Below are positions 16,492 through 59,988 of a stretch of DNA of 64,000 bases, one piece after another (the first letter of the stretch is position 1; every line of letters starts with the position of its first letter). The DNA is taken from positions 1 through 64,000 of the forward strand of contig JAQBXK010000002.1 of NCBI GenBank assembly GCA_027625145.1, given 5' to 3'. A model generated the notes under the pieces. That model was not told the origin of the DNA. It was given only the letters and a program-made list of their open reading frames with translations, and made no database searches. A program made the translations under genes and the position numbers. The DNA comes from Pseudomonadota bacterium. Lineage in GTDB: Bacteria > Pseudomonadota > Alphaproteobacteria > Puniceispirillales > Marisalimonadaceae.

Positions 16492-16495
16492 TTCT

Positions 16496-33890: not shown

Positions 33891-33906
33891 TTTAACTCTA
33901 TATAGT

Positions 33907-35379: not shown

Positions 35380-35391
35380 AGTAAACTCCTA

Positions 35392-35910: not shown

Positions 35911-35940
35911 ATTCTTGATAACCTTTATCGTAATTTTAAA

Positions 35941-36933: not shown

Positions 36934-37043
36934 TATAACTCTCCCCATTTAATTAAATTTTAACTTCACTTTGTATTTGATAAATTATTAATGCAACTAA
37001 TATTTTATAAAATTAGTGAATGTATTAAATATTCTATATATAG

Positions 37044-37898: not shown

Positions 37899-37910
37899 AT
37901 ATTGATCTCC

Positions 37911-40859: not shown

Positions 40860-40895
40860 TTTGAAATCCTTTTAAATATAAAAAAATTATAAAAA

Positions 40896-41699: not shown

Positions 41700-41832
41700 T
41701 TTTTAACTCCCAGATAAAAATTTAACTTGTTATCTAATATTATATACTAATAACTGTTGCAAGTCATAGAGATTAAATCATAATTATAATAAAGTCATTA
41801 TGAGTTTTTGATGTATTTAAAGGATATAAGGT

Positions 41833-43766: not shown

Positions 43767-43775
43767 ATTTATAAT

Positions 43776-44192: not shown

Positions 44193-44211
44193 TAGTTTTT
44201 CCTGTATAAAA

Positions 44212-45558
44212 TTATCTGTTATCCAGAAGCCTTTGAGCCATTGCAGGAGCTGCGCCTAAGTAGTTAGCAGGATCAACTATTTTAACTAATTGAGATTTAT
44301 TAAAAATATTTGAAATGGAAGCTTGGGATAGCAACACATCTATAAATGGAGTTTTGTTTTTTAAAGAATCTCTACAACATTCATAGACTATATCATGGGC
44401 TATCTGTCTTCCAATATGAGGAGCTAAAGACATCATAACAGATTCTGCAACTATTAAGCCATTAGTTTTATTCATATTGTCTTTCATATTTTCTACAGAT
44501 ATTTCTAAACCCTCTAGAAGGTATTTTGAAGAACTTAAACAAGCAGAAGAAATAATAAAAGCATTTGGTAAAGTATACCATTCAACATGCCATTGCCCTG
44601 TTGCTCTTTCATGATCAAGAACCATTGCGTCTAACATTGATGAATGATGCTCTCGTAATAGTTTTGAACAAGCTAACATCACTTCTGACGATATAGGGTT
44701 TCTTTTTTGAGGCATTGTAGATGACGCTCCTCTTCCATGAAGAAAAGGTTCTGCTACTTCTTGAATTTCAGTTTGCATCATTAACATAACGTCGTATGCA
44801 ATTTTGCCTAAAGATGCTCCCACTAAAGCCAACCAACCTGTAACTTCACAAAAATTATCTCTTATTGAATGCCAACTTACATCTGGTACGTTTAGATTTA
44901 ATTCCTTTGCAAGGTTAGCTTGTGTTTGCAAGCCGTCAGTTTCTCCAAGAGATGCAAGAGTTCCCGCCGCCCCAAAAAATGAAACGTTAAACACACGCGT
45001 TTTAATTTCTTCCAATCGTTTTATATGTCTATCTATACTTGATAACCAAGTAGCAGCTTTATATCCAAATGGAATGGGTAATGCATGTTGTAAGTGAGTT
45101 CTTCCAGCCATTGGTGTATTTATATGTTGTTTAACTATTTTAGATAAAGCAACTGCTACTGCATTCAAGTCTTTTGATAATAAGGTTATACCTTTTCTAA
45201 TTTGTAATACATCCGCTGTATCCATTATATCTTGGGTAGTAGCTCCCCAATGACAATACTGACCATATCCATCATCAACTGATAAACTTAGTTGTTCAAC
45301 TAGAGGTAGAATAGGATAGCCAACTATCTCTGTTCTGGTTTTTAATGTATCCCAGTTAATCCATGTTAAATTTGCAGCAGCAGTTATTTTTTCACCCGCT
45401 TCTTTTGGAATAATTCCTAACTTAGATTGAGACCTTGCAAGAGCAGCTTCAACATCTAAATAAAGTTGAACGGTTGTTTCATCAGAAAAAACATCTCGCA
45501 TTTCTTTTGTTCCAAACATTTCTCCCCAAATTTTCGAATTAGTAACCAAAGATGGCAT
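44212..45558 (-). CDS. Fumarase/aspartase superfamily lyase, 3-carboxymuconate cycloisomerase-like
   Basis: This 448-residue all-helical lyase has the superfamily signature GRGASSTMPQKRNPISSEVMLACSK, plus HWGATTQDIMDTADVLQIR and GRTHLQHALPIPFGYKAATWLSSIDR with the catalytic His. These segments, and length, match PcaB-type 3-carboxy-cis,cis-muconate cycloisomerases and close adenylosuccinate-lyase relatives. It could process the product of the pcaHG dioxygenase encoded at 27727-29026, but enzymes of this branch also act on other substituted succinates. It is followed by a thioesterase and preceded by an enoyl-CoA hydratase gene. Confidence 0.85.
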   Translation of the reverse strand: MPSLVTNSKIWGEMFGTKEMRDVFSDETTVQLYLDVEAALARSQSKLGIIPKEAGEKITAAANLTWINWDTLKTRTEIVGYPILPLVEQLSLSVDDGYGQYCHWGATTQDIMDTADVLQIRKGITLLSKDLNAVAVALSKIVKQHINTPMAGRTHLQHALPIPFGYKAATWLSSIDRHIKRLEEIKTRVFNVSFFGAAGTLASLGETDGLQTQANLAKELNLNVPDVSWHSIRDNFCEVTGWLALVGASLGKIAYDVMLMMQTEIQEVAEPFLHGRGASSTMPQKRNPISSEVMLACSKLLREHHSSMLDAMVLDHERATGQWHVEWYTLPNAFIISSACLSSSKYLLEGLEISVENMKDNMNKTNGLIVAESVMMSLAPHIGRQIAHDIVYECCRDSLKNKTPFIDVLLSQASISNIFNKSQLVKIVDPANYLGAAPAMAQRLLDNR

Positions 45559-45576
45559 AGTATTATTCCTTTAAAA

Positions 45577-46368
45577 TTATTTTTTGTACCAGTATGCTGT
45601 TCTTTTTTCTAGAAAGCTAGTTAACCCTTCAGTAGCTTCTTCACTCATTCTTTTTTGTGAGTGTTCTATTACTAATTCATTAAATTTATCATCACTTAAA
45701 ATTAAACCACTCTCAATGAGAGCTCTTTTTTTTGTTATTTCAAGCGCTTTAGGAGCGCAAAGCAATAAATTTTCTATGATAGGCTTAACTGTAATGTCTA
45801 GATTTCCTGTTTTACAAACTTGATGAACAAGGCCTATATTTTTAGCCTCTTCTGCATCAAATCTTTCACAAGTTAAAGCATATCTTCTAACATTTCTAAC
45901 TCCAATTGAAGCATTGAGATGAGGAATAATAATTCCTGCCATTACACCCCATTTTGCTTCTGTAATAGAAAATATTGCATCTTCGCTGGCAATAACTATA
46001 TCAGTGGCAGCAGCCATGCCAGTACCTCCTCCAAAGCATCCACCATGAATTAGAGCAATAGTTGGTTTTGGAAATTCAGTTAGTCCTTTAATTGCTGAGG
46101 CGGTATTTCTTGAGACTTCTATGTTTTGTTCTTCATTTAATTTTCCAATTTCTTTAAGCCATTCTAAATCAGCTCCACCTTGAAAATGTTTTCCAGAGCC
46201 TCTTATTATAACAACTCTAACATCTTGATTGTTATAGAGAGATGTAAAGCTTTTTATTAATTCAGAAATCATTTCTCCATTATAAGCGTTGTTTCTTTCA
46301 GGTCGATTTAATGTAACTTCTGCAACGCCTCTTTCATCAATATTTGTTAATACAATTCCATCTTTCAT
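45577..46368 (-). CDS. Enoyl-CoA hydratase/isomerase family protein, second copy
   Basis: This 263-residue crotonase-fold protein shows AEVTLNRPERNNAYNGEMISELI, RVVIIRGSGKHFQGGADLEWLKEI and ALIHGGCFGGGTGMAAATDIVIASEDAIFSITEAKWGVMAGII, the last containing a Glu in the usual catalytic position. The C terminus ends GLTSFLEKRTAYW. It could be a methylglutaconyl-CoA hydratase or a general short-chain hydratase. It lies 18 bases upstream of the PcaB-like gene on the same strand. The substrate is unknown. Confidence 0.9.
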   Translation of the reverse strand: MKDGIVLTNIDERGVAEVTLNRPERNNAYNGEMISELIKSFTSLYNNQDVRVVIIRGSGKHFQGGADLEWLKEIGKLNEEQNIEVSRNTASAIKGLTEFPKPTIALIHGGCFGGGTGMAAATDIVIASEDAIFSITEAKWGVMAGIIIPHLNASIGVRNVRRYALTCERFDAEEAKNIGLVHQVCKTGNLDITVKPIIENLLLCAPKALEITKKRALIESGLILSDDKFNELVIEHSQKRMSEEATEGLTSFLEKRTAYWYKK

Positions 46369-46409: not shown

Positions 46410-46748
46410 TTATATATCTAATGCTGTTATAGAAGATTGATTAATAGCGAATGACCGCAAGCGAACTTTAACTTTAAAATTTTTTTTGATAATTTCACCT
46501 ATATTATCTAAACAATTTTTTCTTTTAAATTCATTTCTATAATTAGTTTCTCTAAATTTTAATTCACAATAGATTTTATAATCTGATGTAATAATTCGGC
46601 TGTTTACCCAGATTATTTGGCATTTATCTTCTTCGGCGTCTAATATTTTTATAATTATTTTTTTTAATGCCTCTTCTATTTTTTTAAAATCTAATTCTTC
46701 AATTATATTATTTAAACTTTGATCAGTATGTATAATCAGAGAGGGCAT
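46410..46748 (-). CDS. Tautomerase superfamily protein (5-carboxymethyl-2-hydroxymuconate isomerase-like)
   Basis: From the ATG at 46748 the product is 112 residues and starts MPSLIIHTDQSL, which leaves Pro at position 1 after Met removal, the catalytic base of the tautomerase superfamily. A longer reading from 46760 would bury that Pro; GGAATTTG lies at the right distance for 46748. Length and the CQIIWVNSRIITSDYKIYCELKFRE region fit CHMI-like isomerases better than small 4-oxalocrotonate tautomerases. It heads the minus-strand set and diverges from the mesaconyl-C4-CoA hydratase-like gene. Substrate unknown. Confidence 0.7.
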   Translation of the reverse strand: MPSLIIHTDQSLNNIIEELDFKKIEEALKKIIIKILDAEEDKCQIIWVNSRIITSDYKIYCELKFRETNYRNEFKRKNCLDNIGEIIKKNFKVKVRLRSFAINQSSITALDI

Positions 46749-46865
46749 AACAAATTCCATTTATTTTAATATTATATTTCATATATTTGATTAATTATTG
46801 TATTTTATATATTTAAATTTTATGTATGTAATTAACTTGTTTATAAAATTTTAGGGGTTCAGTAA

Positions 46866-47723
46866 ATGACTAATGAAGAATTGGATATAAATCATTTAAA
46901 TAAATGGCTTGGTAATACAGAAATTGTTACAGATTATTTAACCCCAGTTGTTGAACAGCGTTATAGAGCTACATTAAATATAGATCCAGGAAATCCTGTA
47001 GACGGGGAATCTGCTACATCTGGTATACATTGGATGCTTGCATGGAATTTAAAGAAGAATGACGAGCTTGGAGTTGATTCTCATCCTGCAAGAGGAGATT
47101 TTCTGCCACCTGTCCCTCTTCCTAGGAGGATGTGGGCTGGTAGCCAAATTAAAGTGCATAATCCTTTGAGAGTTGGTGATAAGGTAGTTAAGAAATCAAA
47201 GGTTGCTGATATAAAATTAAAAACAGGTAGAACGGGACAATTATGTTTTGTTACAGCTGAATATGAATTTTTAGTTGAAGACGAAGTAAGATTGCATGAG
47301 CTACATAATATAGTTTATAGAGATGTTAGTAAAGCAGGAGGAGGTTCAGGCGTTTCTGATATTATTCCTGACGATGCAGATTTTACAGAAACAATTTTTA
47401 TGCATCCGACTATATTATTTAGATATTCTGCTATTGGTTTTGTCGGCCATAGAATTCATTATGATTATCCATATACTAAAAATGAAGAAAATTACCCCGA
47501 TTTAATAGTTCACGGCCCTTTACAAGCAACGTTTTTATTAAGAGCGGCAGAAAAGCTTAAAGGAAAATCTGTATTGTCATTTAACCATAAGGTAATGGCA
47601 CCTGTTTTTGCTAATAGTGAATATATTATTGGAGCAAAAGAAAATCCAGACGGAAGTGTTTCTTGTTGGGGAGCGGTTAAAGGTTCTGGAGTGACAATGC
47701 AAGCTGAAGCTTATTTTGATTAG
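46866..47723 (+). CDS. FAS1-like / MaoC dehydratase, mesaconyl-C4-CoA hydratase-like
   Basis: This 285-residue double-hotdog protein shows GIHWMLAWNLKKNDELGVDSHPARGDFLPPVPLPRRMWAGSQI, DADFTETIFMHPTILFRYSAIGFVGHRIHYDYPYTKNEENYPDLIVHGPLQATFLLRAAEK and a FNHKVMAPVFANSEYIIGAK strand. The FRYSA-x-N/GHRIHYD pattern is the hydratase active-site region. This family includes 3-methylfumaryl (mesaconyl-C4)-CoA hydratase of the 3-hydroxypropionate cycle, which makes (S)-citramalyl-CoA. The citramalyl-CoA lyase-like and CaiB genes downstream support that activity. Its stop lies 19 bases before the MmgE/PrpD start. Confidence 0.87.
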   Translation: MTNEELDINHLNKWLGNTEIVTDYLTPVVEQRYRATLNIDPGNPVDGESATSGIHWMLAWNLKKNDELGVDSHPARGDFLPPVPLPRRMWAGSQIKVHNPLRVGDKVVKKSKVADIKLKTGRTGQLCFVTAEYEFLVEDEVRLHELHNIVYRDVSKAGGGSGVSDIIPDDADFTETIFMHPTILFRYSAIGFVGHRIHYDYPYTKNEENYPDLIVHGPLQATFLLRAAEKLKGKSVLSFNHKVMAPVFANSEYIIGAKENPDGSVSCWGAVKGSGVTMQAEAYFD

Positions 47724-47742
47724 AGATAATAAGGAGGAAGAA

Positions 47743-49065
47743 ATGGTTTCGATAACACAATTATTTGGAAGTTATGGCGCTAATTGTAAATTAGAGAGTT
47801 TTAATGATGAAATGAAATTTTTTGCAAAAATGTCAATATTGGATTGGTGTGGGGTTGCTTATGCTGGGAAGAAAGAACCTGTATCAAAAATTGTTTCACA
47901 AATGGTTATGGAAGAGTCAGGGATAAATCAGGCAAGAATTATTACTACTGGTCATAAAGTTTCTTCAAGAGGGGCTGCATTAGCAAATGGAGCGACTGGC
48001 CACGCATTAGATTATGATGACACTCACTTTCTTTTTGTAGGTCACCCAACTTCAAGTGCTTTGCCGGCTGCGTTAGCATTGGGGGAAGAATTAGGTTCAT
48101 CAATAGAAGATATCCTTCTGGCGTATATGACTGGCGTTGAAATTTCTACAAGAATAGGACATATATTGGGATATTCACATTATAATGCTGGCTTCCATCA
48201 GACTGCAACTAGTGGTTCTTTTGGTTCAACTATTGTTGCATCTAAATTACTTAATTTAAATGAATCGCAGACCATCAATGCTCTTGGCTTAGTATCAACT
48301 AGAGCTTCCGGAATTAAGTCACAATTTGGAACAATGGGTAAGCCATTTCATGCTGGAATGGCAGCGTCTAATGGGATTGAAGCGGCTAAATTATCAAAAC
48401 TTGGCTTTGTATCTCGTGATGATGGCATTGAGTGTGAGCAAGGTTTTTTTCAAACACATGGGTGGAATAAAGAAATTCCTCCAAGAGCAATTGAAAAATT
48501 AGGAACAGAATTTTTATTTCCTGAAATAAAATATAAATTTCATGCGTGTTGTCATGGTTTACACTCATTTTTGGAGGCTCTAGATGAGCTAAAGAAAGTT
48601 AATAATTTTAATCCTGAGACAATAAAGGAAATTCAAATAGAAACTAACCCAACGTGGTTAAAGGTATGTAATATTGAAAAGCCGAAAACAGGATTAGAAT
48701 CTAAGTTTTCCTATAAATTGACTGCAGCTATGTCAATATATGGCAATGATACTTCTGATCTAGATAGTTATAATGACGAGATATGCTTTGAAGATAAAAT
48801 GGTGTCTTTGAGAGATAAAGTAAATATCATTCCTAACGATAAATTAACGGATACTCAGTCGGTAATTTCAATTAATGATGGATCACAAGTTATAAAAAAT
48901 ACTCATGATTTGTCTAATAAAATAGAGAAAAATATTTTAGAAAATAAAATTATCAATAAGTCAGTATCTTTATTGTCAAAATCTAAATCAGAACTAATTT
49001 CAAATATGTTGAATGAACCTAAAGCTCATAATGTTAGTTCACTGGTTGATTGTTTGGTAAGTTAA
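47743..49065 (+). CDS. MmgE/PrpD family protein, copy 2
   Basis: This 440-residue protein has GATGHALDYDDTHFLFVGHPTSSALPAALALGEELG, the most conserved MmgE/PrpD motif, then NAGFHQTATSGSFGSTIVASKL, GTMGKPFHAGMAASNGIEAAKL and YKFHACCHGLHSFLEAL. It may be a dehydratase, an isomerase or, as for cis-aconitate decarboxylase, a decarboxylase. I start it at ATG 47743 behind AAGGAGGAAG. The stop overlaps the next gene (TAATG), which shows tight coupling with a CaiB transferase. Confidence 0.88.
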   Translation: MVSITQLFGSYGANCKLESFNDEMKFFAKMSILDWCGVAYAGKKEPVSKIVSQMVMEESGINQARIITTGHKVSSRGAALANGATGHALDYDDTHFLFVGHPTSSALPAALALGEELGSSIEDILLAYMTGVEISTRIGHILGYSHYNAGFHQTATSGSFGSTIVASKLLNLNESQTINALGLVSTRASGIKSQFGTMGKPFHAGMAASNGIEAAKLSKLGFVSRDDGIECEQGFFQTHGWNKEIPPRAIEKLGTEFLFPEIKYKFHACCHGLHSFLEALDELKKVNNFNPETIKEIQIETNPTWLKVCNIEKPKTGLESKFSYKLTAAMSIYGNDTSDLDSYNDEICFEDKMVSLRDKVNIIPNDKLTDTQSVISINDGSQVIKNTHDLSNKIEKNILENKIINKSVSLLSKSKSELISNMLNEPKAHNVSSLVDCLVS

Positions 49066-50219
49066 TGGAAAAACAAGATTCCAGTACTGATTTAGCTGGG
49101 TTATTAGTTGTTACTATTGAACAAGCTGTTGCTGCTCCTTATGTTTCATGCCGTTTAGCGGATGCTGGTGCGCGTGTGATAAAAGTAGAAAGACCAGAAG
49201 GTGATTTTGCAAGAAGTTATGATAGTAATGTACTTGGTAATAGCGCTTATTTTGTTTGGTTAAATAGGGGCAAAGAATCTATAGCGTTAAATTTAAAAGA
49301 CGATAAAGATTTTTTAATATTAAAAAATCTAATCTCTAAAGCAGATGTCTTGATTCAAAATTTAGCTCCTGGGGCGTTTGATAGATTAGGTGTGAGTTTA
49401 AAAAATTTAAGGGCTAAGCATCCATCCCTTATCACATGCTCTATTTCTGGATTTGGTGAAGAGGGACCTTATAAAAATCAAAAAGCATATGACATGCTAA
49501 TTCAAGCAGAGACAGGATTAATTGATCTTACAGGCTTGCCGGATACGGAAAACTTTGATGGACGTGCAAAAGTTGGCGCTTCAGTTTGTGACATTTCTGC
49601 AGGTATGACAGCTTACCAAGCTATTCTTCAGGCTTTAATTAAAAGAGGAATTACTGGCAAAGGAAGACATATTTCTGTTTCAATGTTCAATGCACTAGCA
49701 GATTGGTTAAACCCTTTTTACCTAGGGTATGTCTACAGTAATAAAATACCTAAAAGAAGTGGTATAAAGCATCCAATTATTGTTCCTTACGGCGCTTATA
49801 AGTGTAAAGATAATCTTACGTTATTAATTGCAATACAGAATGATCGAGAATGGATAAAGTTCTGTAAATTAGTTTTAGATCGTGAAAATTTATCTGTAGA
49901 CCCTAGATTTGATACGAACTCTAATAGAGTGAAGAATAGAGATTTGATTGAAAAAGTAATAGAAGATATTTTTATAGAATATGATAGAAATATTATTATT
50001 GAAAAGTTAGAAAATGCAGGCATTGCATACGGAAGAATTTCTGATATGGAGCAATTAAAAAATCATCCTCAAAATAATTATTTGGAAGTGAATACAAAAA
50101 ATGGACCTGTAAGAATGCTTGGGCCTGGTGCAATTCATGATAACTTTATTCCTAAAGTAAATAACTCACCTGAGTTAGATGAACACGGAGCAAAAATAAG
50201 AGCAGAATTTAATTTATAA
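49065..50219 (+). CDS. CaiB/BaiF family CoA-transferase, copy 2
   Basis: This 384-residue class III CoA-transferase shows LLVVTIEQAVAAPYVSCRLADAGARVIKVERPEGDFARSYDS, YFVWLNRGKESIALNL, ITCSISGFGEEGPYKNQKAYDMLIQAETGLIDLTG with the catalytic Asp in YDMLIQ, and a C-terminal GEH-like LDEHGAKIRAEF. In the 3-hydroxypropionate cycle an enzyme of this family moves CoA within mesaconate (C1 to C4), and here the hydratase and lyase partners are neighbours. The ATG shares a base with the upstream stop. Confidence 0.9.
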   Translation: MEKQDSSTDLAGLLVVTIEQAVAAPYVSCRLADAGARVIKVERPEGDFARSYDSNVLGNSAYFVWLNRGKESIALNLKDDKDFLILKNLISKADVLIQNLAPGAFDRLGVSLKNLRAKHPSLITCSISGFGEEGPYKNQKAYDMLIQAETGLIDLTGLPDTENFDGRAKVGASVCDISAGMTAYQAILQALIKRGITGKGRHISVSMFNALADWLNPFYLGYVYSNKIPKRSGIKHPIIVPYGAYKCKDNLTLLIAIQNDREWIKFCKLVLDRENLSVDPRFDTNSNRVKNRDLIEKVIEDIFIEYDRNIIIEKLENAGIAYGRISDMEQLKNHPQNNYLEVNTKNGPVRMLGPGAIHDNFIPKVNNSPELDEHGAKIRAEFNL

Positions 50220-50246
50220 TAATTTTAGAAAAAACAGGAGATTACG

Positions 50247-51059
50247 TTGAGAAGTATTTTATTTTTACCTACTGATAAGATTGAGAGACTGCCTAAAGCC
50301 CTAGGTTCAGGAGCTGATAAAGTTATATTTGATCTTGAGGATGGCCTTGCAGGTGATAAAAAAAATATAGGAAGATCTAATTTTGCTGATTTAGCAAAAA
50401 GAAATTACGATGGACATTCTGATAAATTTTTACTTAGGATTAACGCCTTAGATACGGAAGAATATAAAGAAGATATTAAGATGTTGAAATCTTTACCTTC
50501 TCTTCCATTTTCTATAGCTATCCCAAAAATAGAATCACCAGATGAATGTAGAACATTCTTAAATGACATTGGAAAAAAGGTTTTGATTTTACCTCAAGTT
50601 GAAACTCCAAGAGGAATAGCTAATGTTGAAACTTGGGAATGTTCAGATATAGAGTTTTCTGGAATTGGATTTGGCTCTGCAGATTATTGCGCATCAACTG
50701 GTGGAGATATGGGTAAAGATAGTTTAGCTTATGGACGAGGCAAAATTATAAATGCCGCAGCGCTTTATAATACACTTGCTTTAGACGGAGTTTGGTTAGA
50801 TTTTAAAGATGCTGATGGTTGTAGAGCAGAAACGGAATATGTAAAATCAATGGGTTTCAAAGGTAGATTTGCTATACATCCTGATCAAATAGATCCAATT
50901 CATGATGCTTTTAATCCTTCAAAAGAAGAGTTAGAGTGGGCTAAAGGTGTTTTAGAAGAAGCAAAGACAGCAGGAACAGGTGCCTTTAAATTTCAGGGGA
51001 GAATGGTTGATGCTCCTGTGTTGTCAGTAGCGAGGTTAATTATATCTAGGGAGGGTTAA
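50247..51059 (+). CDS. HpcH/HpaI family CoA-ester lyase, citramalyl/malyl-CoA lyase-like
   Basis: This 270-residue TIM-barrel lyase begins RSILFLPTDKIERLPKALGSGADKVIFDLEDGLA, then ILPQVETPRGIANVETW with a metal-ligand Glu, FGSADYCASTGGDMG with the Asp, and GFKGRFAIHPDQIDPIHDAFNPSKEE. This is the citrate lyase beta-subunit/CitE-like group that cleaves acyl-CoA esters such as citramalyl-CoA to pyruvate and acetyl-CoA, or malyl-CoA to glyoxylate and acetyl-CoA. The start is TTG at 50247 behind ACAGGAG. The next gene begins directly after its stop. Confidence 0.9.
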   Translation: MRSILFLPTDKIERLPKALGSGADKVIFDLEDGLAGDKKNIGRSNFADLAKRNYDGHSDKFLLRINALDTEEYKEDIKMLKSLPSLPFSIAIPKIESPDECRTFLNDIGKKVLILPQVETPRGIANVETWECSDIEFSGIGFGSADYCASTGGDMGKDSLAYGRGKIINAAALYNTLALDGVWLDFKDADGCRAETEYVKSMGFKGRFAIHPDQIDPIHDAFNPSKEELEWAKGVLEEAKTAGTGAFKFQGRMVDAPVLSVARLIISREG

Positions 51060-51605
51060 ATGGATGAACATACGTATGGAATTAGAAAAATAGGGCCACA
51101 AAGATACAGAGAAGATCCAGGTAGAGATTTTGAAGACTTTCAAGTTGGTGATGTTTATGAACACTGGCCAGGTAGAACTGTCACAGAGGCTGATAACATT
51201 TGGTTCACTAACCTTACTATGAATACGCATCCTATACATTTTGATGCCAACTATGCGTCTAAATCTGAATTTGGAAAATATCTCGTTAACTCAGCTTTTA
51301 CACTGGCGTTAGTTACTGGAATGTGTGTAAGCGGAACTAGCCAGAAAGCTATTGCAAACTTGGGTTGGGAAGAAATTAAAATTCCAGCACCTGTGTTTGT
51401 CGGAGATACTTTGTATTCTGAGTCGGAGGTTTTGGATAAAAGAGAATCTAAATCTAGACCAAATCAAGGTATAATCAGAATAAGGCACATTGGTAAAAAC
51501 CAAGATAATATAATTGTAATGAATATGGTTAGATCATTCCTTGTTGCTAAAAGAGGACATAGCATTGTTGATGATATTATTAATGAAACAGTTAAAAAGA
51601 GGTAA
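51060..51605 (+). CDS. MaoC-like dehydratase, possible mesaconyl-CoA hydratase
   Basis: This 181-residue single hotdog protein shows FEDFQVGDVYEHWPGRTVTEADNIWFTNLTMNTHPIHFDANYASKSEFGKYLVNSAFTLALVTGM, with the Asn/His pair of the R-hydratase active site (MNTHPIHFD), and AIANLGWEEIKIPAPVFVGDTLYSESEVLDKRES. It is the type of MaoC domain found in mesaconyl-CoA and related 2-enoyl-CoA hydratases. The ATG follows the lyase stop without a gap, and the CaiB gene starts six bases after its stop. Confidence 0.88.
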   Translation: MDEHTYGIRKIGPQRYREDPGRDFEDFQVGDVYEHWPGRTVTEADNIWFTNLTMNTHPIHFDANYASKSEFGKYLVNSAFTLALVTGMCVSGTSQKAIANLGWEEIKIPAPVFVGDTLYSESEVLDKRESKSRPNQGIIRIRHIGKNQDNIIVMNMVRSFLVAKRGHSIVDDIINETVKKR

Positions 51606-51611
51606 ATATAC

Positions 51612-52817
51612 ATGGATTTGCCACTAAGTGGATTAAAGATTCTATCCTTTGAACAGTATGGAGCGGGTCCTTTTGGCACTCAATATCTAGCAGATATGGG
51701 GGCTGAAGTTATTAAAGTAGAGCCTGCTGGCACAAGTGGAGATTATTTAAGAGATATAGGCCCATATTTCATTGATGGTGAAAATAGAAACACTGCTTCT
51801 AGTATTTTTTTTCAAGCTTTAAATAGAAATAAAAAAAGCATTACATTGGATGTATTGTCAGATGAAGGAAAAAAAATTTTAGAAAAACTGGTCAAATCAT
51901 CTGATGCTGTCTGTAATAACCTTAGGGGAGACGTTCCTGAAAAGCTTGGTATTACATATGACCAATTAAAAGTTTATAATGAAGCTATTGTATGTGCGCA
52001 TTGTTCCGCTTACGGAAGAGAAGGCCCTAGAAAAAATTGGCCTGGCTATGATTATTTAATGCAAGCTGAAGCTGGTTATTTTTCTTTAACCGGAGATCCT
52101 AATGGTCCACCAGCAAGGTTTGGTCTTTCTGTTGTTGATTACATGTCAGGGCTTACAATGTCATTTGGTCTAGTTAGTGCTGTTTTATCTGCAAAACTTA
52201 AAGGTTTAGGAAGAGATGTTGATGTCAATTTGTTTGATACTGCTATGTTTAATCAAAGTTATATGGCTGCATGGGCTTTGAATACAGATTTTAAGAGTGA
52301 ACGTTTAGAGAGGTCAGCTCACCCGATTTTAGTGCCGTGTCAATTATATAAAACAAAAGATGGTTGGATTTATTTAATGTGTAATAAAGAAGATTTTTGG
52401 CCTGTTTTATGTGATCATATAGGCCGAAAAGATTTAGCTAAAGATCCAAGGTTTAATAATTTTAAAAACAGACAAGATCATAGAGATATTCTTACAAAAA
52501 TTCTAGATGAAGAATTAATGAAAAAAAATACAAAAGAATGGCTAAAAGATTTTGGAGGAGTCGTTCCGGCAGCACCTATTTTAAATTTAAAGGAATCATT
52601 AGAAAACCCATTTTTAAAAGGTAGAAGAAATATTCAAACTTTAAAAACTAAGCATGGTGTTGATATTAGCTTATTAAAAACTCCTGTTCATCTAAAAGAA
52701 GATAATCAAGATGACTTTACTGCCCCAGAACTTGGAGATCACACAGATGAAGTGTTATCTAAGGTAGGATTTTCGGATGAAGAAATAAGCAAACTTAGAT
52801 CGCTAGGTGTTATATAG
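51612..52817 (+). CDS. CaiB/BaiF family CoA-transferase, copy 3
   Basis: This 401-residue class III CoA-transferase shows GLKILSFEQYGAGPFGTQYLADMGAEVIKVEPAGTSGDYLRDIGPYF, FFQALNRNKKSITLDVLSDEGKKIL, AYGREGPRKNWPGYDYLMQAEAGYFSLTGDP with the catalytic Asp (YDYLMQ) and a C-terminal LGDHTDEVLSKVGFSDEEI. It could activate the incoming dicarboxylate using succinyl-CoA or another CoA donor. It ends the plus-strand set before the TRAP operon. No partner donor-acid is obvious. Confidence 0.9.
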   Translation: MDLPLSGLKILSFEQYGAGPFGTQYLADMGAEVIKVEPAGTSGDYLRDIGPYFIDGENRNTASSIFFQALNRNKKSITLDVLSDEGKKILEKLVKSSDAVCNNLRGDVPEKLGITYDQLKVYNEAIVCAHCSAYGREGPRKNWPGYDYLMQAEAGYFSLTGDPNGPPARFGLSVVDYMSGLTMSFGLVSAVLSAKLKGLGRDVDVNLFDTAMFNQSYMAAWALNTDFKSERLERSAHPILVPCQLYKTKDGWIYLMCNKEDFWPVLCDHIGRKDLAKDPRFNNFKNRQDHRDILTKILDEELMKKNTKEWLKDFGGVVPAAPILNLKESLENPFLKGRRNIQTLKTKHGVDISLLKTPVHLKEDNQDDFTAPELGDHTDEVLSKVGFSDEEISKLRSLGVI

Positions 52818-52966
52818 TTTTCTGAGCTTTAGTAACGACTTATTTTATCAAAGCTCAATATTACATAACATATTAACTAAATATTTCTAAATTTTATAAA
52901 TTAAAGGTTTACCAATTGAATGGATATCTATAAATTCAGGTTCTATAAATATTCGGAGGAAATTTT

Positions 52967-54100
52967 ATGAAATTAACTAAAACAACACTATTAGGAGCAG
53001 TTGGTGCTCTTTCAATTATGGCTACAGCAGCAACTAGTTTTGCTGTTGAACCAGTTACAATACGTTGGGCATCAGATCATTCTGGTCCGCCACATCCTGC
53101 AGCTATTGCTGAAGCATATTTTGCTGACGTGGTAGAAGCTAAAATACCTGGAAGTAAAGTTCAGGTTTATTGGGCAAAATCTTTGTATACAGTGCCAGGT
53201 GCAATGGAAGCATTGTCAGATGGAAACCTAGAAATGATGACAGGCCAGTTTGGAAAAGGTGCCTCTGTTGATCCTTATGTTCAGGTTTTAGTTGGTGCTG
53301 GAAAACTTACAACACCTGGTGCAGTCAATGGATTAGATTCAACTAAGACATATGGCATCATTAAAAAAAGATTTAATGATATGCATGATATTACAGTATT
53401 TGGTTCTGGCCATTTAAGTATGTATATGGGAGCTGGAGGTGTTAAAAAGAGAATGATAACCCCTGGTGATTTTAAAGGTTTAAAAGTTAGAAGTATGGGG
53501 CCTGCAGAAAACGCATTATTAGGCGGTTTAGGAGCTAACCCTACTACTATGGCTTTTGGAGACGTTCCTTCTGCTCTTCAGACTGGCGTTTTAGATGGTC
53601 TTCTAACTAGTTTAGGTGGTTTTAATGCTACTAAAGAGCAAGCACCTTACTTTTCAGTTGCTGGAGTTAATGGTATCGTGGGAGACTATTATTTTATTGC
53701 GGGAAGTAATAAGTGGTGGAGTAAGCTTAAAAAAGATCAACAGGATGCCTTACAAGATATTATTGTAAATGATTTTATCCCTTATCAAAAAGCTATAAAT
53801 TTCTGTAATGACAAGCTAATGCTAGATAAGTATCAAGTTACTGATAAAACAAAGCCTGGTATTTATGTTATGACAACAGCTGAAGCTGATGCATTAAACG
53901 TAGCTGAAGATGGAGCAACTAATAAATGGATCAAAACTAAAGTTGATGATGCTGGTGATAAGTTAGTAGATCAGTTCGTATCTGAAGCAAAAGCTCTTGT
54001 AAAAGCTAATCCTTTGGGATCAAGTTCTTTAGAAAAAACTGATTGTTCAGCTTTCGCTAAGGATTTTAGTAAGTATAAAAAAGCTAAAAAGCGTCTTTAG
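52967..54100 (+). CDS. TRAP transporter substrate-binding protein (DctP type), second system
   Basis: This 377-residue periplasmic receptor has a signal peptide (LGAVGALSIMATAATSFA, cleavage near residue 27) and the DctP fold: PVTIRWASDHSGPPHPAAIAEAYFADVVEAKIPGSKVQVYWAKSLYTVPGAMEALSDGNLEMMTGQFG, ITPGDFKGLKVRSMGPAENALLGGLGANPTTMAFGDVPSALQTGVLDGLLTS. A GGAGGAAATTTT site precedes the ATG. It follows the CoA-transferase genes and precedes dctQ and dctM, so it probably imports the acid degraded by this cluster. Confidence 0.94.
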   Translation: MKLTKTTLLGAVGALSIMATAATSFAVEPVTIRWASDHSGPPHPAAIAEAYFADVVEAKIPGSKVQVYWAKSLYTVPGAMEALSDGNLEMMTGQFGKGASVDPYVQVLVGAGKLTTPGAVNGLDSTKTYGIIKKRFNDMHDITVFGSGHLSMYMGAGGVKKRMITPGDFKGLKVRSMGPAENALLGGLGANPTTMAFGDVPSALQTGVLDGLLTSLGGFNATKEQAPYFSVAGVNGIVGDYYFIAGSNKWWSKLKKDQQDALQDIIVNDFIPYQKAINFCNDKLMLDKYQVTDKTKPGIYVMTTAEADALNVAEDGATNKWIKTKVDDAGDKLVDQFVSEAKALVKANPLGSSSLEKTDCSAFAKDFSKYKKAKKRL

Positions 54101-54113
54101 TATATAAAAATAC

Positions 54114-54143
54114 ATAGAGATCCATTATTTAATGGATCTCTAT
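54114..54143 (+). promoter_or_regulatory. Stem-loop between TRAP receptor and membrane-subunit genes
   Basis: ATAGAGATCCATT, loop ATTT, and AATGGATCTCTAT form a perfect 13-base-pair stem 13 bases after the dctP stop. There is no T-run. As in the first TRAP operon, it probably protects the receptor message or partly ends transcription, so that the receptor is made in excess of DctQM. Confidence 0.72.
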
Positions 54144-54162
54144 ATTATCTTAGGATAAAATT

Positions 54163-54714
54163 ATGAATACCTTTCTTGATTTCTCAGAAAAATTAAAATC
54201 TCTTATTGACTCTATTTTTTCAAAAATGGCGGCTATTATTCTTATTAGTACCTTGTTATTTGCACTTACTGAAATAACTAGAAGGTATATTTTTAGCGTT
54301 GTTTTTCAATGGGGTCAGGACGCTGTTATTTACGCAATGGTGTCAAGTATTGCTTTATATATAGGCGTAACTCAAATTAAACGCGGACACTTAGTTATGA
54401 GTGCAGCATTAGAGGTTTTAAACGCCTATAAATATTATAGAACAATAGGAATATTAAAAATATTTGTTTCAATATCAACTTTTTTGTTTTGTGGATCACT
54501 TGCTGTTACAGGTTGGCCAACAGTTCTCAAATCTCTATTAAGAGAGACTAAAACTGAAAGTTTAACTTTTGACCTTTGGATGTTTCAATTCATACTAATG
54601 TTGGGATTAGGTATAATGGCTACAGTTGCATTTTTGCAAACAATTGAAGACATGATTCATTATATTCAAGGTAAACATTTAGATGGAAAATTAGAATTAG
54701 TATCTGATGTTTAA
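54163..54714 (+). CDS. TRAP transporter small permease (DctQ type), second system
   Basis: This 183-residue membrane protein has four hydrophobic helices. The MAAIILISTLLFALTEITRRYIFSVVFQWGQDAVIYAMVSSIALYIGVTQIKRGHLVMS segment follows the DctQ pattern (R-x3-F, W-x2-D/E-x3, RGHL). Its ATG lies 19 bases after the hairpin that follows dctP, and dctM follows after 33 bases. The subunit supports DctM and contributes to receptor docking. Confidence 0.9.
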   Translation: MNTFLDFSEKLKSLIDSIFSKMAAIILISTLLFALTEITRRYIFSVVFQWGQDAVIYAMVSSIALYIGVTQIKRGHLVMSAALEVLNAYKYYRTIGILKIFVSISTFLFCGSLAVTGWPTVLKSLLRETKTESLTFDLWMFQFILMLGLGIMATVAFLQTIEDMIHYIQGKHLDGKLELVSDV

Positions 54715-54747
54715 TTGTAATTTTATAAAATTTATTTGGAGAAAAAT

Positions 54748-56031
54748 GTGTTTGCTTTAGGCGGGTCTTTATTTACTTTACTTTTTATTGGTGTGCCAAT
54801 TGGGATCGCTTTGGCGGGCGCTACGGCTTTAATAGTTATGTTTGACCCTTTTTTAACTTACCCTACTTTATTTAAAGCTTTTTTTACTTTTCTTACTAAA
54901 TATACTTTAATTGCTATTCCTTTTTTCATATATGCAGGCTTTTTGATGGAAAAATTTGGATTAGTTGGAGGTTTATTTAAGTTTGCAGACTCATTAGTGG
55001 GATGGGTTCCTGGAGGTTTTGCATATGCAACTTTAATAGCTGCAGTTATGTTTGGAGCTATTTCAGGATCATCTACTGCAATGGCCGCTGCAATGAGTGT
55101 TATAGCTTATCCAGAATTAGTAAAAAGAGGCTACCCAAAATGGATGGCAGCAGGAGTTATTGCTTCTGCTGGTGGAATTGCATTATTAATACCACCAAGT
55201 ATTACATTAATTTTATTTGGAGTTATCACAGAAGAATCAATTGTTTCTTTATTTTTTGCTGGAGTTGTTCCAGGTATAATGTTGGCAATTAGTGATGCTG
55301 TTATTATAGTAGGAGTTTCTTTTATAATCAAATTACCTAGAGGAACTTTTGAGCTAAAGAAAGTTGGTGAAACTTTTATAGAAGCATTGCCAGCTTTATT
55401 TATGCCAGTGATTGTACTTGGTGGTTTATATGGGGGTGTTTTTACACCTACAGAGGCAGGGGCAGTTGCTGCAGGTTATGCATTGATTTATGGATTAATT
55501 TTTAAGCGTAAGCTTTTCTTAAAAGAGCTGATGCCTACAACAATAAGAACAATGAATTTAACTGCATTAGTTTTTTTCCTTTTAGGATGTGTAGGAGTTT
55601 TTCAATTTTTCTTAGCTAACAAAGGTTGGCCAATGGAGATTGCTGATTGGGTTGGAACTTTAGGTCTATCTCAGATGGGTTTTCTTTTTGTATTAATGGG
55701 TTCATTATTATTCTTATCCATGTTTTTAACCGGTGTAGCAATTTTGGTTCTTACGGTTCCTATTTACTTTCCGGTTGCCTTATCCTTAGGGGTTGATCCT
55801 ATTCATCTAGGTATATTAACAGCATTAGCTATTGAAATAGGAAGTGTAATACCACCTGTTGGATTAAATTTATTTGCTGTTAGTGGTGTGACAGGATTAC
55901 CTGTGACAACAGTTATCAAAGGCTCATTTCCATTTTGTATATCAGATACAGTGGTATTAATTATTGTTTTATTATTTCCAGCATTAGCTCTTTGGTTGCC
56001 GGATGTTTTGATAGTTTCTCATTTTAAATAA
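54748..56031 (+). CDS. TRAP transporter large permease (DctM type), second system
   Basis: This protein of about 427 residues has twelve predicted helices and the DctM signatures FIGVPIGIALAGATALIVMF, FGAISGSSTAMAAAMSVIAYPELVKRGYPKWMAAGVIASAGGIALLIPPSITLILFGVITEESIVSLFFAGVVPG, GGLYGGVFTPTEAGAVAAGYALIYG and IGSVIPPVGLNLFAVSGVTG. I place the start at GTG 54748, because TTTGGAG lies immediately upstream and the TTG at 54736 is itself part of that site. The stop overlaps the convergent amidase stop by eight bases. Confidence 0.94.
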   Translation: MFALGGSLFTLLFIGVPIGIALAGATALIVMFDPFLTYPTLFKAFFTFLTKYTLIAIPFFIYAGFLMEKFGLVGGLFKFADSLVGWVPGGFAYATLIAAVMFGAISGSSTAMAAAMSVIAYPELVKRGYPKWMAAGVIASAGGIALLIPPSITLILFGVITEESIVSLFFAGVVPGIMLAISDAVIIVGVSFIIKLPRGTFELKKVGETFIEALPALFMPVIVLGGLYGGVFTPTEAGAVAAGYALIYGLIFKRKLFLKELMPTTIRTMNLTALVFFLLGCVGVFQFFLANKGWPMEIADWVGTLGLSQMGFLFVLMGSLLFLSMFLTGVAILVLTVPIYFPVALSLGVDPIHLGILTALAIEIGSVIPPVGLNLFAVSGVTGLPVTTVIKGSFPFCISDTVVLIIVLLFPALALWLPDVLIVSHFK

Positions 56032-57304
56032 ATAAAGAATGAAACTGTTTAGAGTAACTTAATAATTGATTATCATTACCAACTTTGGTAACGAGTTGGC
56101 AACCGATAGGTAAACCATTTTTTCCTTTAAACAAAGGTAGAGTTAAGCAAGGATTGCCAATTAAGGACCATGCTGTGTTAAAAATGGCAGAGCCAGTATA
56201 ATCCAAGCCTTTAAGAGCTTCTCCAGGTGCACTAGGTGTAATAATTAAATCAAAATCATCAAAAATTAAATCCATTTTATTTTTTAAGATATTTAATTCT
56301 TTTAGAGCTTTTCGATATAAATCATTAGTTACATTATACCCATCATTTAAACGACCATTTCTTAAAATTTCACTTAATTGATCATAATGATTAAATCGTT
56401 CAAATGAGATAGATCTTTTAAATTCATAACCACTAATATCGATGTGTAATTTATTTGAAGCATTAATTATATCGTCTAAATTTAATTCTATGATATTAAT
56501 TTTATCAGATTGAAAATTATTGAATAAGTCTTCTAAATTATTTTTTGTTTCATCGTCTGTATCTTCCCAATTTGGAGTTCTTACAAATCCAATCTTGATG
56601 GTTTTTAGATCAATATTTTTAAGTATTATATTTTTTTCTTCAAGTAAAATTGATCTAAATAATGAAATATCTTCAACTGATCTAGACATAATTCCTAAAG
56701 TATCTATTGAAGGTGAATTAGGAAGTATTCCAGATTTATCAAAATCTCCATATGTAGGTTTGTAACCAATTACACCGCAATAAGCTGCTGGTCTAATCAC
56801 AGAGCCAGTAGTTTGAGTGCCAAGACAAATTGGAACCATCTTATCTGCAACTGCAGCTGCTGATCCAGAACTTGAACCTCCTGGAGTATATTCTATATTA
56901 TTAGGGTTTGCAGTAGGACCAGGTGCTCTATGACCTAATTCGGTAGTAACCGTTTTTCCTAAAGTTATACAACCATAATTTTTAGCAATAGCAATTGATC
57001 CTGCATCACGAATTGGAATATTTTGATTATAAAATTTAGTCCCAAGACCAGAAGGTAAGTTAGCTACATCAATAATATCCTTAACACCAAAAGGTATACC
57101 TACTTTATCCTTAGATTTTAATTCATCATACTCTTTTGCTTTGTTAAGTGCGTTATCCTCATCAAGATATGCCCACGCTTTGACTTGGGGCTCTTTTTCT
57201 TTAATTCTTTTAAGGCAACTTAAAACCCATTCATGAATGGATAGGGTTTTATTTTGTATTTGTTTAATACCATCTGATGCGGATAATTCATAAGGTTCTG
57301 TCAT
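56024..57304 (-). CDS. Amidase signature family hydrolase
   Basis: This 426-residue amidase has the Ser-cis-Ser-Lys triad: Lys in GIPFGVKDIIDVANLPSG, the Ser of YTPGGSSSGSAAAVADKMVPICLGTQTTGSVIRPAAYCGVIGYKPTYG, which also contains the cis-Ser (TTGSV), and the typical CLTLPLFKGKNGLPIGCQLV C-terminal segment. It hydrolyses an amide to acid and ammonia; it is shorter than GatA (about 480) and no gatB or gatC is nearby, so a catabolic amidase is more likely. It is transcribed toward dctM. Confidence 0.9.
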   Translation of the reverse strand: MTEPYELSASDGIKQIQNKTLSIHEWVLSCLKRIKEKEPQVKAWAYLDEDNALNKAKEYDELKSKDKVGIPFGVKDIIDVANLPSGLGTKFYNQNIPIRDAGSIAIAKNYGCITLGKTVTTELGHRAPGPTANPNNIEYTPGGSSSGSAAAVADKMVPICLGTQTTGSVIRPAAYCGVIGYKPTYGDFDKSGILPNSPSIDTLGIMSRSVEDISLFRSILLEEKNIILKNIDLKTIKIGFVRTPNWEDTDDETKNNLEDLFNNFQSDKINIIELNLDDIINASNKLHIDISGYEFKRSISFERFNHYDQLSEILRNGRLNDGYNVTNDLYRKALKELNILKNKMDLIFDDFDLIITPSAPGEALKGLDYTGSAIFNTAWSLIGNPCLTLPLFKGKNGLPIGCQLVTKVGNDNQLLSYSKQFHSLFI

Positions 57305-57414
57305 TGTTTTATCTTATTAAGTTTAAAGAGTTTAATAATAGAATATATTTTTTTGTTTTGCATAATTAATTTTTAGTTTAGGATTTTTAGACTAAGTAAT
57401 AGTGGGGAATGATT

Positions 57415-58797
57415 ATGGTAAAAATTACTGAAAAATTTGCTGAATTTTGCGAAGAAATTGAATTCAAAAAACTACCAGCTGATGTTGTTAAAAGAACTAA
57501 ATTATTAATTTTAGATACTGTAGGAATTATTATAAGAGCAAGACATGATTCAGAATCTACCCCTAGTCTGCTTACAGCCATAGAAAAATTAGAGTTAGAT
57601 AATGGAAGTTGTAATGTATTCTCTGATAGTAAAAGCTATACGCCTGGTGCTGCGGCATTGCTCAATGGGAGTTTAGCTCATTCATTAGATTTTGATGATA
57701 CGCATGCTGAAGCTTCCCTTCATTCTAGCGCACCAATTCTTTCTGCAGCTATAGCTGCAGCTCAAATGCAAAAATCGTCAGGACAAGATTTGATAACTGC
57801 ATGTGTTTTAGGTTATGAAATTCAGATAAGATTAGGTTTAGCTGGAGGATCCTCTGCACATTATAAAAGAGGATTTCATCCAACAGCAACATGTGGAATA
57901 TTTGGAGCCGCCGCCGCCGCCGGTTATTTGATTGGTTTGAATAAAGAACAATTTATATCTGCCTTTGGAATAGCGCTTAGTCAATCAGCGGGCTCAATGC
58001 AATTTCTTGCCGATGGAGCTTGGACAAAACGTTCTCATGTAGGACAAGCTGCTCAAAACGGTTTGAATTGTGCAATTATGGCTGGCGAAGGTTTTAAAGG
58101 TCCAGCTGATGCCTTTGATGGTAAATGGGGGTATTTACATTCTTATGCATCTGGTGGTGATATAACTAAAGCTTTAGAAGGTTTAGGAACAAAATATGAA
58201 ACCCTAAACTTAGGTGTTAAACCTTATCCATCATGTAGATATAGCCATGCAGCAATTGACGGTTTAATAGAATTTAGAAATGAACTAAATTTTTCATTAG
58301 ATAATTTAAATGAAGTTGAAATAGGACTTTCTGAAACGGCTCTAAATATTATTGGGTACCCTGAGGAAGATAAAAAAAATCCAAAAAGTATTGTAGATGG
58401 ACAGTTTTCTATGCCTTTTTGTGCAGCTGTTGCACTAAAAGGTGGAGATTTAACTTGGGATGATTATAAGACACATCTAAGTGATAGTGACACTCTTTCA
58501 TTATGTAGAAGCATAAAAGTTAATCCTGATGAAGATGCTGAAAATTGCTGTCCTGAGTACATGAGTGCCAAAGTTAAAATAGTAGTTGATGGGGTGCAAC
58601 ATGAAAAATTTATTAAAATACCAAAAGGTGAACCAGAAAATTTTATGAGTGATAATGAATTCAAATCAAAATTTATAAGTTTAACAGAGCCTTATTTGTC
58701 ATCCAAAAGGATTGATCAGTTAACAGATTTAATGATGAGAATGGAAAATGTTAATACAGTTAATTCTATTTTTGAATTAAGTCAGGTTGATATTTAA
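57415..58797 (+). CDS. MmgE/PrpD family protein, copy 3
   Basis: This protein of about 460 residues shows LLNGSLAHSLDFDDTHAEASLHSSAPILSAAIAAAQMQKSSG, the core MmgE/PrpD motif, then YKRGFHPTATCGIFGAAAAAGYLIGLNKEQFISAFGIALSQSAGSMQFLADGAWTKRSHVGQAAQNGLNCAI and LGVKPYPSCRYSHAAIDG. A GCCGCCGCCGCCGCC-like run encodes an Ala stretch. I prefer ATG 57415, seven bases after GGGGA; ATG 57409 is possible. An acyl-CoA dehydrogenase follows after 21 bases. The acid it acts on is unknown. Confidence 0.88.
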   Translation: MVKITEKFAEFCEEIEFKKLPADVVKRTKLLILDTVGIIIRARHDSESTPSLLTAIEKLELDNGSCNVFSDSKSYTPGAAALLNGSLAHSLDFDDTHAEASLHSSAPILSAAIAAAQMQKSSGQDLITACVLGYEIQIRLGLAGGSSAHYKRGFHPTATCGIFGAAAAAGYLIGLNKEQFISAFGIALSQSAGSMQFLADGAWTKRSHVGQAAQNGLNCAIMAGEGFKGPADAFDGKWGYLHSYASGGDITKALEGLGTKYETLNLGVKPYPSCRYSHAAIDGLIEFRNELNFSLDNLNEVEIGLSETALNIIGYPEEDKKNPKSIVDGQFSMPFCAAVALKGGDLTWDDYKTHLSDSDTLSLCRSIKVNPDEDAENCCPEYMSAKVKIVVDGVQHEKFIKIPKGEPENFMSDNEFKSKFISLTEPYLSSKRIDQLTDLMMRMENVNTVNSIFELSQVDI

Positions 58798-58818
58798 AGT
58801 ATTATAAAGGAGATCCTT

Positions 58819-59988
58819 ATGAATGAACAAAGCATAATAGACGTAGAAAAATCATCAAATGAAGAAGAACGTTTGATACTTGAAGCAGTAGACAGATTTC
58901 TTGAAAGAGATGTAAGGCCATTTGTTAGAGAATTTGAATCAGAAGACAAATATCCTAAATTAATTGCTGATAAAATGGCTGAGTTAGGTTTGTTCGGAGC
59001 AACAATTTCTCCTGAATATGGCGGTTTAGGTATGTCGGCTGTTACTTATTCTAAAATTGTAGAAAATGTGTCAGCTGTGTGGATGTCTGTATCAGGAATA
59101 TTTAATTCACATTTAATAATGTGTGCAGCTGTAGAGAGATTTGGCACTAAAGAAATGAAAGAGTATTATCTGCCTAAATTTGCTTCTGGGGAGATAAGAG
59201 GCGGAATAGCGCTTACTGAACCAGATTGCGGTACAGACCTTCAAGCGATAACAACAAAAGCAGTTAAAGATAAAGGTAGTTATATTATTAATGGAAATAA
59301 AACATGGATAACAAACTCCGTTCAAGGAACGATTCTGGCTGTTTTAGTCAAAACTGATACTAATATTAAACCTGCTCATAAAGGAATGAGTTTAATTCTT
59401 GTTGAAAAGAAAGATGGATTTATTGCAAGAAAGTTAAAAAAACTTGGTTATAAAGGAATTGATACTGGAGAAGTTCAGTTTGATAACGTAAAAGTAATTT
59501 CTTCAAATCTTATAGGTGAGATTGAAGGTCAAGGGCTAAAACAAATTTTAGCTGGTTTAGAGTTAGGTAGAATTAATGTTGCGGCAAGAGGTGTAGGTCT
59601 CTCTAGGGCAGCATTAGATGATTCGATAGCTTATGCAAAAACAAGAAAAACTTTTGGCAAACCTATTGGGGAACATCAATCTATTCAAATAAAATTAGCT
59701 GAAATGGCTACCAGATTAGAGGCGTCTCGACTGCTAACTGAGCAAGCTGCTATAGCATATGATTCTGGAAAAAGATCAGATTTGCAAGCTGGAATGGCTA
59801 AATTATTTGCAACAGAAACGGCATTATTTAATTCAACAGAAGCAATGCGTATTCATGGAGGGTTTGGATATTCTCCAGAATATAATATAGAGCGATATTA
59901 TAGAGATGCACCTTTATTAGTTATAGGTGAAGGTACGAATGAATTACAAAAATTAATTATTGCTAAACAATTAATGATAGATAACTAA
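58819..59988 (+). CDS. Acyl-CoA dehydrogenase family protein
   Basis: This 389-residue FAD enzyme shows LGLFGATISPEYGGLGMSAVTYSKIVE, ALTEPDCGTDLQAITTKAVKDKGSYIINGNKTWITNS, RKTFGKPIGEHQSIQIKLAEMATRLEASRLLTEQAA and MRIHGGFGYSPEYNIERYYRDAPLLVIGEGTNELQKLIIA. The Glu of IGEGTNE is the expected catalytic base of short-chain/glutaryl-type dehydrogenases. It introduces a 2,3 double bond in an acyl-CoA. With the CoA-transferases and hydratases upstream it could oxidise methylsuccinyl-CoA or a similar ester. The stop overlaps the convergent AzlD stop by four bases. Confidence 0.93.
   Translation: MNEQSIIDVEKSSNEEERLILEAVDRFLERDVRPFVREFESEDKYPKLIADKMAELGLFGATISPEYGGLGMSAVTYSKIVENVSAVWMSVSGIFNSHLIMCAAVERFGTKEMKEYYLPKFASGEIRGGIALTEPDCGTDLQAITTKAVKDKGSYIINGNKTWITNSVQGTILAVLVKTDTNIKPAHKGMSLILVEKKDGFIARKLKKLGYKGIDTGEVQFDNVKVISSNLIGEIEGQGLKQILAGLELGRINVAARGVGLSRAALDDSIAYAKTRKTFGKPIGEHQSIQIKLAEMATRLEASRLLTEQAAIAYDSGKRSDLQAGMAKLFATETALFNSTEAMRIHGGFGYSPEYNIERYYRDAPLLVIGEGTNELQKLIIAKQLMIDN

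Follow-up and report, generated by a model that had tools for sequence, protein, structure and literature searches.

Gene content and conservation of the locus

We analysed a window of 64,000 nucleotides (positions 1 to 64,000 of contig JAQBXK010000002.1, assembly GCA_027625145.1; C14 in our numbering), with a G+C content of 32%, from an alphaproteobacterium of the SAR116 cluster whose genome is a 2.27 Mb draft metagenome-assembled genome (MAG) of 96% completeness. The interval described here, 46410-59988, carries a candidate locus for the catabolism of branched C5-dicarboxylates, and its unusual point is that it is a mosaic: an enzyme set of the Pseudomonas aeruginosa type (set A: Ich, PrpD1 and CaiB1) is interleaved with a second set that is free-standing elsewhere (set B: RipB-type MaoC, CaiB2, PrpD2 and an acyl-CoA dehydrogenase, ACAD), and one lyase is shared between them (Table 1). 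All substrates and reactions given below are predictions from gene content, clade placement, catalytic residues and synteny.

Table 1. Features of the locus and their positions in the window
Feature	Assignment	Position	Strand	Family or remark
Ich	Predicted Ich-type (FAS1_DH/MaoC) itaconyl-CoA/mesaconyl-C4-CoA hydratase	46866..47723	+	PF13452
PrpD1	MmgE/PrpD, probable 2-substituted-succinate (methylsuccinate-type) isomerase	47716..49065, likely ATG 47743	+	PF03972/PF19305
CaiB1	Class III CoA-transferase, Ict (itaconate/methylsuccinate CoA-transferase) clade	49050..50219, likely ATG 49065	+	
Lyase	CitE/RipC/CLYBL-type CoA-ester lyase, predicted (S)-citramalyl-CoA lyase	50247..51059, TTG start	+	PF03328
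RipB-type MaoC	Predicted mesaconyl-C4-CoA/itaconyl-CoA hydratase	51060..51605	+	
CaiB2	Class III CoA-transferase, clade tied to RipB operons	51612..52817	+	PF02515
DctP	TRAP solute receptor	52967..54100	+	PF03480
Hairpin	Between dctP and dctQ, 13-15 pairs	54114..54143	both	Terminator-like scan, consensus match only
DctQ	TRAP small permease	54163..54714	+	PF04290
DctM	TRAP large permease	54736..56031, likely ATG 54748	+	PF06808; TIGR00786 above cut-off
Amidase	Amidase-signature hydrolase	56024..57304	-	PF01425
PrpD2	MmgE/PrpD, probable 2-substituted-succinate isomerase	57409..58797	+	
ACAD	Acyl-CoA dehydrogenase, RipB-operon-linked clade separate from Mcd	58819..59988	+	

The original prediction, made from the sequence without database searches, described a plus-strand run of closely spaced genes. 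Mechanical calling of open reading frames (ORFs) together with Pfam and NCBIfam scans recovered every named gene in its place and bore out the tight spacing: the six genes from Ich to CaiB2 (46866-52817) are packed with slight overlaps or gaps of at most 27 bp, and the genes of a complete TRAP transporter come next (52967-56031). The plus strand held for the named enzymes and the transporter but not for the whole interval, given that the amidase is encoded on the minus strand and over its first 350 bp an ORF of 116 aa runs divergently on the minus strand (46410-46760), which gave zero matches in a Pfam scan. The orientation of the amidase, convergent with dctM, indicates that PrpD2-ACAD form a separate transcription unit. 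Promoter-like matches at the locus were no more frequent than in shuffled sequences.

The search for this gene order in other genomes, which had been proposed as a check, found the block syntenic, with order and orientation kept, in about 45 SAR116 species genomes of four genera, single-cell genomes included, indicating that the arrangement is neither chance nor an assembly error. Its sole regular change was the absence of CaiB1 in two of the four genera. Named relatives of the lyase locus were SAR116-cluster genomes, the nearest (99%) being FRAM18_bin016, which is related to SCGC AAA536-G10.

Two enzyme sets, a shared lyase and accessory genes

The two sets were separated by maximum-likelihood trees and by pairwise comparison with several references, the main one being a P. 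aeruginosa plasmid record (L117), from which the reference sequences of Ich, Mcd, methylsuccinate isomerase (MsI), Ict, Ccl and IctP were taken. This plasmid, p2014S05-249-1, is 847 kb long, is typed as conjugative and carries a complete itaconate/methylsuccinate cluster. In set A, Ich matched only itaconyl-CoA hydratase entries in the PDB (8khg, the best at E=1.7e-50, and 8huc) and is 35% identical to Ich of P. aeruginosa and 43% to that of Shinella. CaiB1, which has the catalytic Asp, is nested within the Ict clade with support of 100/100 and shares 42% and 57% identity with Ict of P. aeruginosa and Shinella, respectively. A true orthologue of the P. aeruginosa dehydrogenase Mcd (65% identity) lies unlinked to the locus at G000:C45:80355-81491 and is present in 36 of the 46 related genomes searched; together with set A it would make up the full methylsuccinate pathway as published. 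The genome also holds a second Ich/Ict-like pair on opposite strands (L210, G000:C16, 9947-11943), 54% identical to Ich and 64% to CaiB1, near which no lyase was recognised.

Within set B, the RipB-type MaoC shares 55% of its residues with the annotated RipB of a Paraburkholderia ripC-ripB-ripA operon. CaiB2 forms a clade with the CaiB proteins of RipB-ACAD operons (99/97), apart from Ict, and is 43-55% identical to its members outside SAR116. Likewise, the local ACAD is 57-70% identical to ACADs of RipB operons outside SAR116, in a clade supported at 97/98, as against 31% to P. aeruginosa Mcd, which falls in a different clade. The two dehydrogenases differ in their catalytic Glu as well: the local ACAD has it at the MCAD-type place, Mcd at the IVD-type place and without the usual C-terminal Glu. 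Judged by known ACADs, these reversed places suggest that the two enzymes may serve different regio-isomers or acids.

Whole or for the most part, set B stands alone in diverse Alphaproteobacteria and also in Variovorax and other Betaproteobacteria. RipB-PrpD-ACAD-CaiB-lyase operons were found in Pseudosulfitobacter (L114), in Azospirillum (L119) and at four further alphaproteobacterial loci (L093, L100, L103 and L109). On the Pseudosulfitobacter plasmid the operon comprises TRAP, CaiB, RipB, PrpD, ACAD and lyase genes, and on the Azospirillum plasmid lyase, RipB, PrpD, ACAD, CaiB, amidase and TRAP genes. The Pseudosulfitobacter CaiB is Ict-like and its PrpD is of a different type, indicating that RipB operons mix parts. 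Adjoining this operon, at 15297-18403 of plasmid pSMR1-4, lie genes for a cobalamin-dependent acyl-CoA mutase pair and MeaB; the mutase matched the methylmalonyl-CoA-mutase subfamily only, which does not settle the substrate of the operon. Among 289 Alphaproteobacteria searched with both hydratases, no other genome was seen to carry Ich within 10 kb of the close RipB type; in the nearest other case (G346) about 19 kb lay between the two.

The tree puts the shared lyase together with RipC and human CLYBL (95/97) and P. aeruginosa Ccl (34% identity) just outside this group. The protein retains both Mg ligands, Glu and Asp, as well as the RIN-motif Arg and the C-terminal Asp. It is the only CitE-type lyase found in the genome; a search by similarity to it did not recover three further HpcH/HpaI proteins, which match the Pfam family. 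Given a single lyase of this type, both sets most likely converge on it, with citramalyl-CoA as their common product.

For the MmgE/PrpD proteins we used the published catalytic residues of MsI (H88, E91, H102, Y148, H152, K202 and K266, P. aeruginosa numbering; PMC12290011), which map exactly onto the plasmid-encoded reference. PrpD1 and PrpD2 retain all seven, with D at position 91 (H,D,H,Y,H,K,K), including the Tyr reported for two-base MmgE/PrpD isomerases (PMC12290011). This Tyr is missing from PrpD3, encoded elsewhere in the window, and from the PrpDs of the Pseudosulfitobacter and Azospirillum operons. Co-localisation with Mcd is a published criterion for extending the methylsuccinate isomerase annotation (PMC12290011), and a member of the PrpD1 clade adjoins genuine Mcd in Palleronia (L116), as do PrpD1-like proteins at two other loci (L204 and L206), while in Shinella (L055) and Sphingobium (L120) the neighbour of Mcd is a member of the PrpD2 clade. 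PrpD2 is 43% identical to this Shinella protein, which we dropped as a reference MsI because it is only 34% identical to MsI of P. aeruginosa. Residues and context thus favour both PrpDs as probable 2-substituted-succinate isomerases. An AlphaFold model of PrpD1 built from a family-only alignment had a mean pLDDT of 61, too poor for a fold search. PrpD3 belongs to a second possible carboxylate cluster at 32508-39011, in which it is accompanied by the tripartite tricarboxylate transporter TctA/B/C, by a TauD dioxygenase and by a member of the enolase superfamily (MR_MLE).

A corresponding model of the TRAP receptor DctP reached a mean pLDDT of 59 and was likewise too poor for a fold search. The strong hairpin between dctP and dctQ is possibly an attenuator that would keep the receptor level above that of the permease. 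A second TRAP transporter (DctP and DctM) is encoded at 21711-24855. The amidase is kept at the same place across SAR116, and amidases occur near other RipB operons as well. These are only 23-29% identical to it (29% in Azospirillum), so that their recurrence is suggestive at most, and we ruled out the amidase as an orthologous part of the pathway. To the left, a divergent arm at 39648-46368 is conserved with the locus in SAR116. Besides CaiB3 and two enoyl-CoA hydratases it encodes a PcaB/ADSL-like lyase, which scored 466 bits against a cut-off of 595 for 3-carboxymuconate cycloisomerase, as well as a hotdog thioesterase, S-(hydroxymethyl)glutathione dehydrogenase and an esterase; the order CaiB3, hydratase, ADSL-like lyase and hydratase is kept wherever the contig extends far enough.

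Predicted pathway and alternative readings

Together, the data suggest that the locus probably serves the catabolism of branched C5-dicarboxylates in SAR116, namely itaconate, both enantiomers of methylsuccinate and probably mesaconate and citramalate. The TRAP transporter would import the acid, the MmgE/PrpD enzymes would interconvert the enantiomers of a 2-substituted succinate, and the CaiB transferases would pass CoA to the acid from succinyl-CoA. Methylsuccinyl-CoA would then be oxidised to mesaconyl-CoA by the local ACAD, the unlinked Mcd orthologue or both; (S)-citramalyl-CoA would arise from mesaconyl-C4-CoA or itaconyl-CoA through hydration by Ich and the RipB-type MaoC, and the CitE-type lyase would split it into pyruvate and acetyl-CoA. 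That such an acid is taken up, joined to CoA, dehydrogenated, hydrated and cleaved had been foreseen in the original prediction, and the placement of CaiB1, the hydratases and the lyase broadly supports it; the prediction treated as one set what proved to be two interleaved ones. The trees that it called for, together with the sequence comparisons, placed CaiB1 in the Ict clade, the hydratases nearest to itaconyl-CoA hydratases and the lyase with RipC and CLYBL, but left CaiB2, the local ACAD and the transport receptor outside the characterised branches.

This last placement is one of several points that weigh against the assignment. The RipB-type MaoC matched NCBIfam RipB_Ich over its full length with 228 bits and the lyase matched RipC_Ccl, its best model, with 163 bits, both missing the equivalog cut-offs (340 and 375, respectively). 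PrpD1 and PrpD2 are only 25% and 28% identical to P. aeruginosa MsI, by which we ruled them out as its orthologues, and at 22% identity DctP was ruled out as an orthologue of IctP. The place of the catalytic Glu in the local ACAD, unlike that in Mcd, hints at another regio-isomer or substrate, and the host genome is a MAG that is 96% complete.

Possible, though less likely than not, is that SAR116 bacteria run two parallel routes for 2-substituted succinates from one locus. RipB-PrpD-ACAD-CaiB2 would then be a pathway not yet described that takes either a second acid or a second CoA regio-isomer, each route having its own MmgE/PrpD racemase and both using one promiscuous lyase. It is conceivable, though somewhat doubtful, that set B (PrpD2, CaiB2, ACAD and RipB) takes a different 2-substituted succinate altogether, e.g. 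an ethyl, hydroxyalkyl or amide-derived one, each PrpD being tuned to its own substituent and the lyase releasing acetyl-CoA and the matching 2-oxoacid. The joint retention of two PrpD, CaiB and dehydrogenase clades across SAR116 is hard to square with pure redundancy, and the canonical Mcd elsewhere in the genome, the recurrence of amidases near RipB operons and the finding that RipB operons of other bacteria have a third type of PrpD, without the Tyr, speak for such a division of labour. However, RipB and the lyase are nearest to itaconate enzymes, the PrpD2 clade includes the neighbours of genuine Mcd in Shinella and Sphingobium, and the two genera that lack CaiB1 keep Ich and PrpD1, suggesting that CaiB2 may cover the same substrates.

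It is unlikely that set B instead uses C1-CoA esters, CaiB2 forming methylsuccinyl-C1-CoA, ACAD mesaconyl-C1-CoA and RipB beta-methylmalyl-CoA, and the lyase releasing propionyl-CoA together with glyoxylate, in the manner of the ethylmalonyl-CoA pathway. The IVD-type Glu of Mcd suits a beta-branched C4 ester, and the MCAD-type Glu of the local ACAD would, by analogy with known ACADs, fit this route, as would the methylmalonyl-CoA-mutase-like gene pair beside the Pseudosulfitobacter operon; on the other hand, relatives of RipB and RipC act on C4 esters and the shared lyase groups with citramalyl-CoA lyases. Moreover, none of 20 genome matches to crotonyl-CoA carboxylase/reductase (Ccr) exceeded the TIGR01751 cut-off, indicating that the genome has no ethylmalonyl-CoA pathway.

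The suggestion in the original prediction that an MmgE/PrpD protein here is a cis-aconitate decarboxylase, making itaconate from imported aconitate for the rest of the locus, has little in its favour: such decarboxylases are MmgE/PrpD proteins and were among the weaker PDB matches, but the top matches, ahead of them, were IDS epimerase and Bacillus subtilis 'IRG1', whose function is unsettled (PMC12290011). In addition, the two-base Tyr reported for epimerases and isomerases is present in both PrpDs, and their clade members pair with Mcd, an enzyme that itaconate supply would not need. Least credible is a role in itaconate detoxification rather than nutrition, as isocitrate lyase, through which itaconate is antibacterial in other bacteria and which is its usual target, was not found at full length in this MAG (only a partial match of 96 positions), and the presence of a dedicated TRAP importer and of a dehydrogenase speaks for use of the acid as a nutrient.

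Known sources of branched C5-dicarboxylates are fungi, macrophages and gut bacteria (PMC12290011), and literature searches combining itaconate degradation with marine bacteria and SAR116 with itaconate found no paper in the collection searched. SAR116 is a widespread surface-ocean group, and the retention of the locus in its genomes suggests that marine dissolved organic matter may regularly contain branched C5-dicarboxylates. The locus also unites two itaconate gene types that have been called products of convergent evolution (PMC12290011), and it points to a widespread, uncharacterised RipB-PrpD-ACAD-CaiB operon with MmgE/PrpD proteins of its own.

Relation to known systems

The ethylmalonyl-CoA pathway, which runs through methylsuccinyl-C1-CoA, resembles the predicted route in its chemistry of dehydrogenation, hydration and CoA-ester cleavage, but its enzymes belong to other subfamilies and its Ccr has no counterpart over the cut-off in the SAR116 genome. 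The Yersinia-type ripABC genes share with the locus a RipB-type hydratase beside a RipC-like lyase; in place of the class I CoA-transferase RipA the SAR116 block has the class III CaiB2, and its RipB and RipC-like proteins stay below the equivalog cut-offs of NCBIfam. Closer are the RipB-PrpD-ACAD-CaiB-lyase operons, which contain set B or most of it, with a TRAP transporter in Pseudosulfitobacter and Azospirillum and an amidase in the latter, but which lack Ich and, in these two, have other types of PrpD and TRAP receptor.

The closest relative of the locus is the itaconate/methylsuccinate cluster PA0878-0886 of P. aeruginosa, which comprises Ich, Mcd, a VOC protein, an MmgE/PrpD protein, Ict, Ccl and a TRAP transporter of published activities (PMC12290011, PMC9875883). 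In this cluster the MmgE/PrpD protein acts as (S)-(R)-methylsuccinate isomerase and the ACAD as (RS)-methylsuccinyl-C4-CoA dehydrogenase (PMC12290011); its genetics (PMC9875883) and transporter (PMC12599236) have been described as well. The laboratory strain P. putida KT2440 does not have this pathway (PMC9875883). The remark that the combination was not one known as a described pathway is outdated, given that MmgE/PrpD, ACAD and TRAP genes alongside Ict, Ich and Ccl are on record in these papers. With the cluster of P. aeruginosa and Cupriavidus necator (ich, mcd, msi, ict, ccl, ictPQM) the locus shares the enzyme classes, the TRAP type, an Ict-clade CaiB1, an Ich homologue and MmgE/PrpD proteins with all isomerase residues, and the SAR116 genome has an Mcd orthologue. 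In contrast, the local ACAD is not Mcd, the PrpDs belong to other clades, the lyase is not close to Ccl, the receptor is unrelated to IctP and a VOC protein like PA0880 is absent from the block, whereas RipB, CaiB2, a second PrpD and the amidase are additions of the SAR116 locus.

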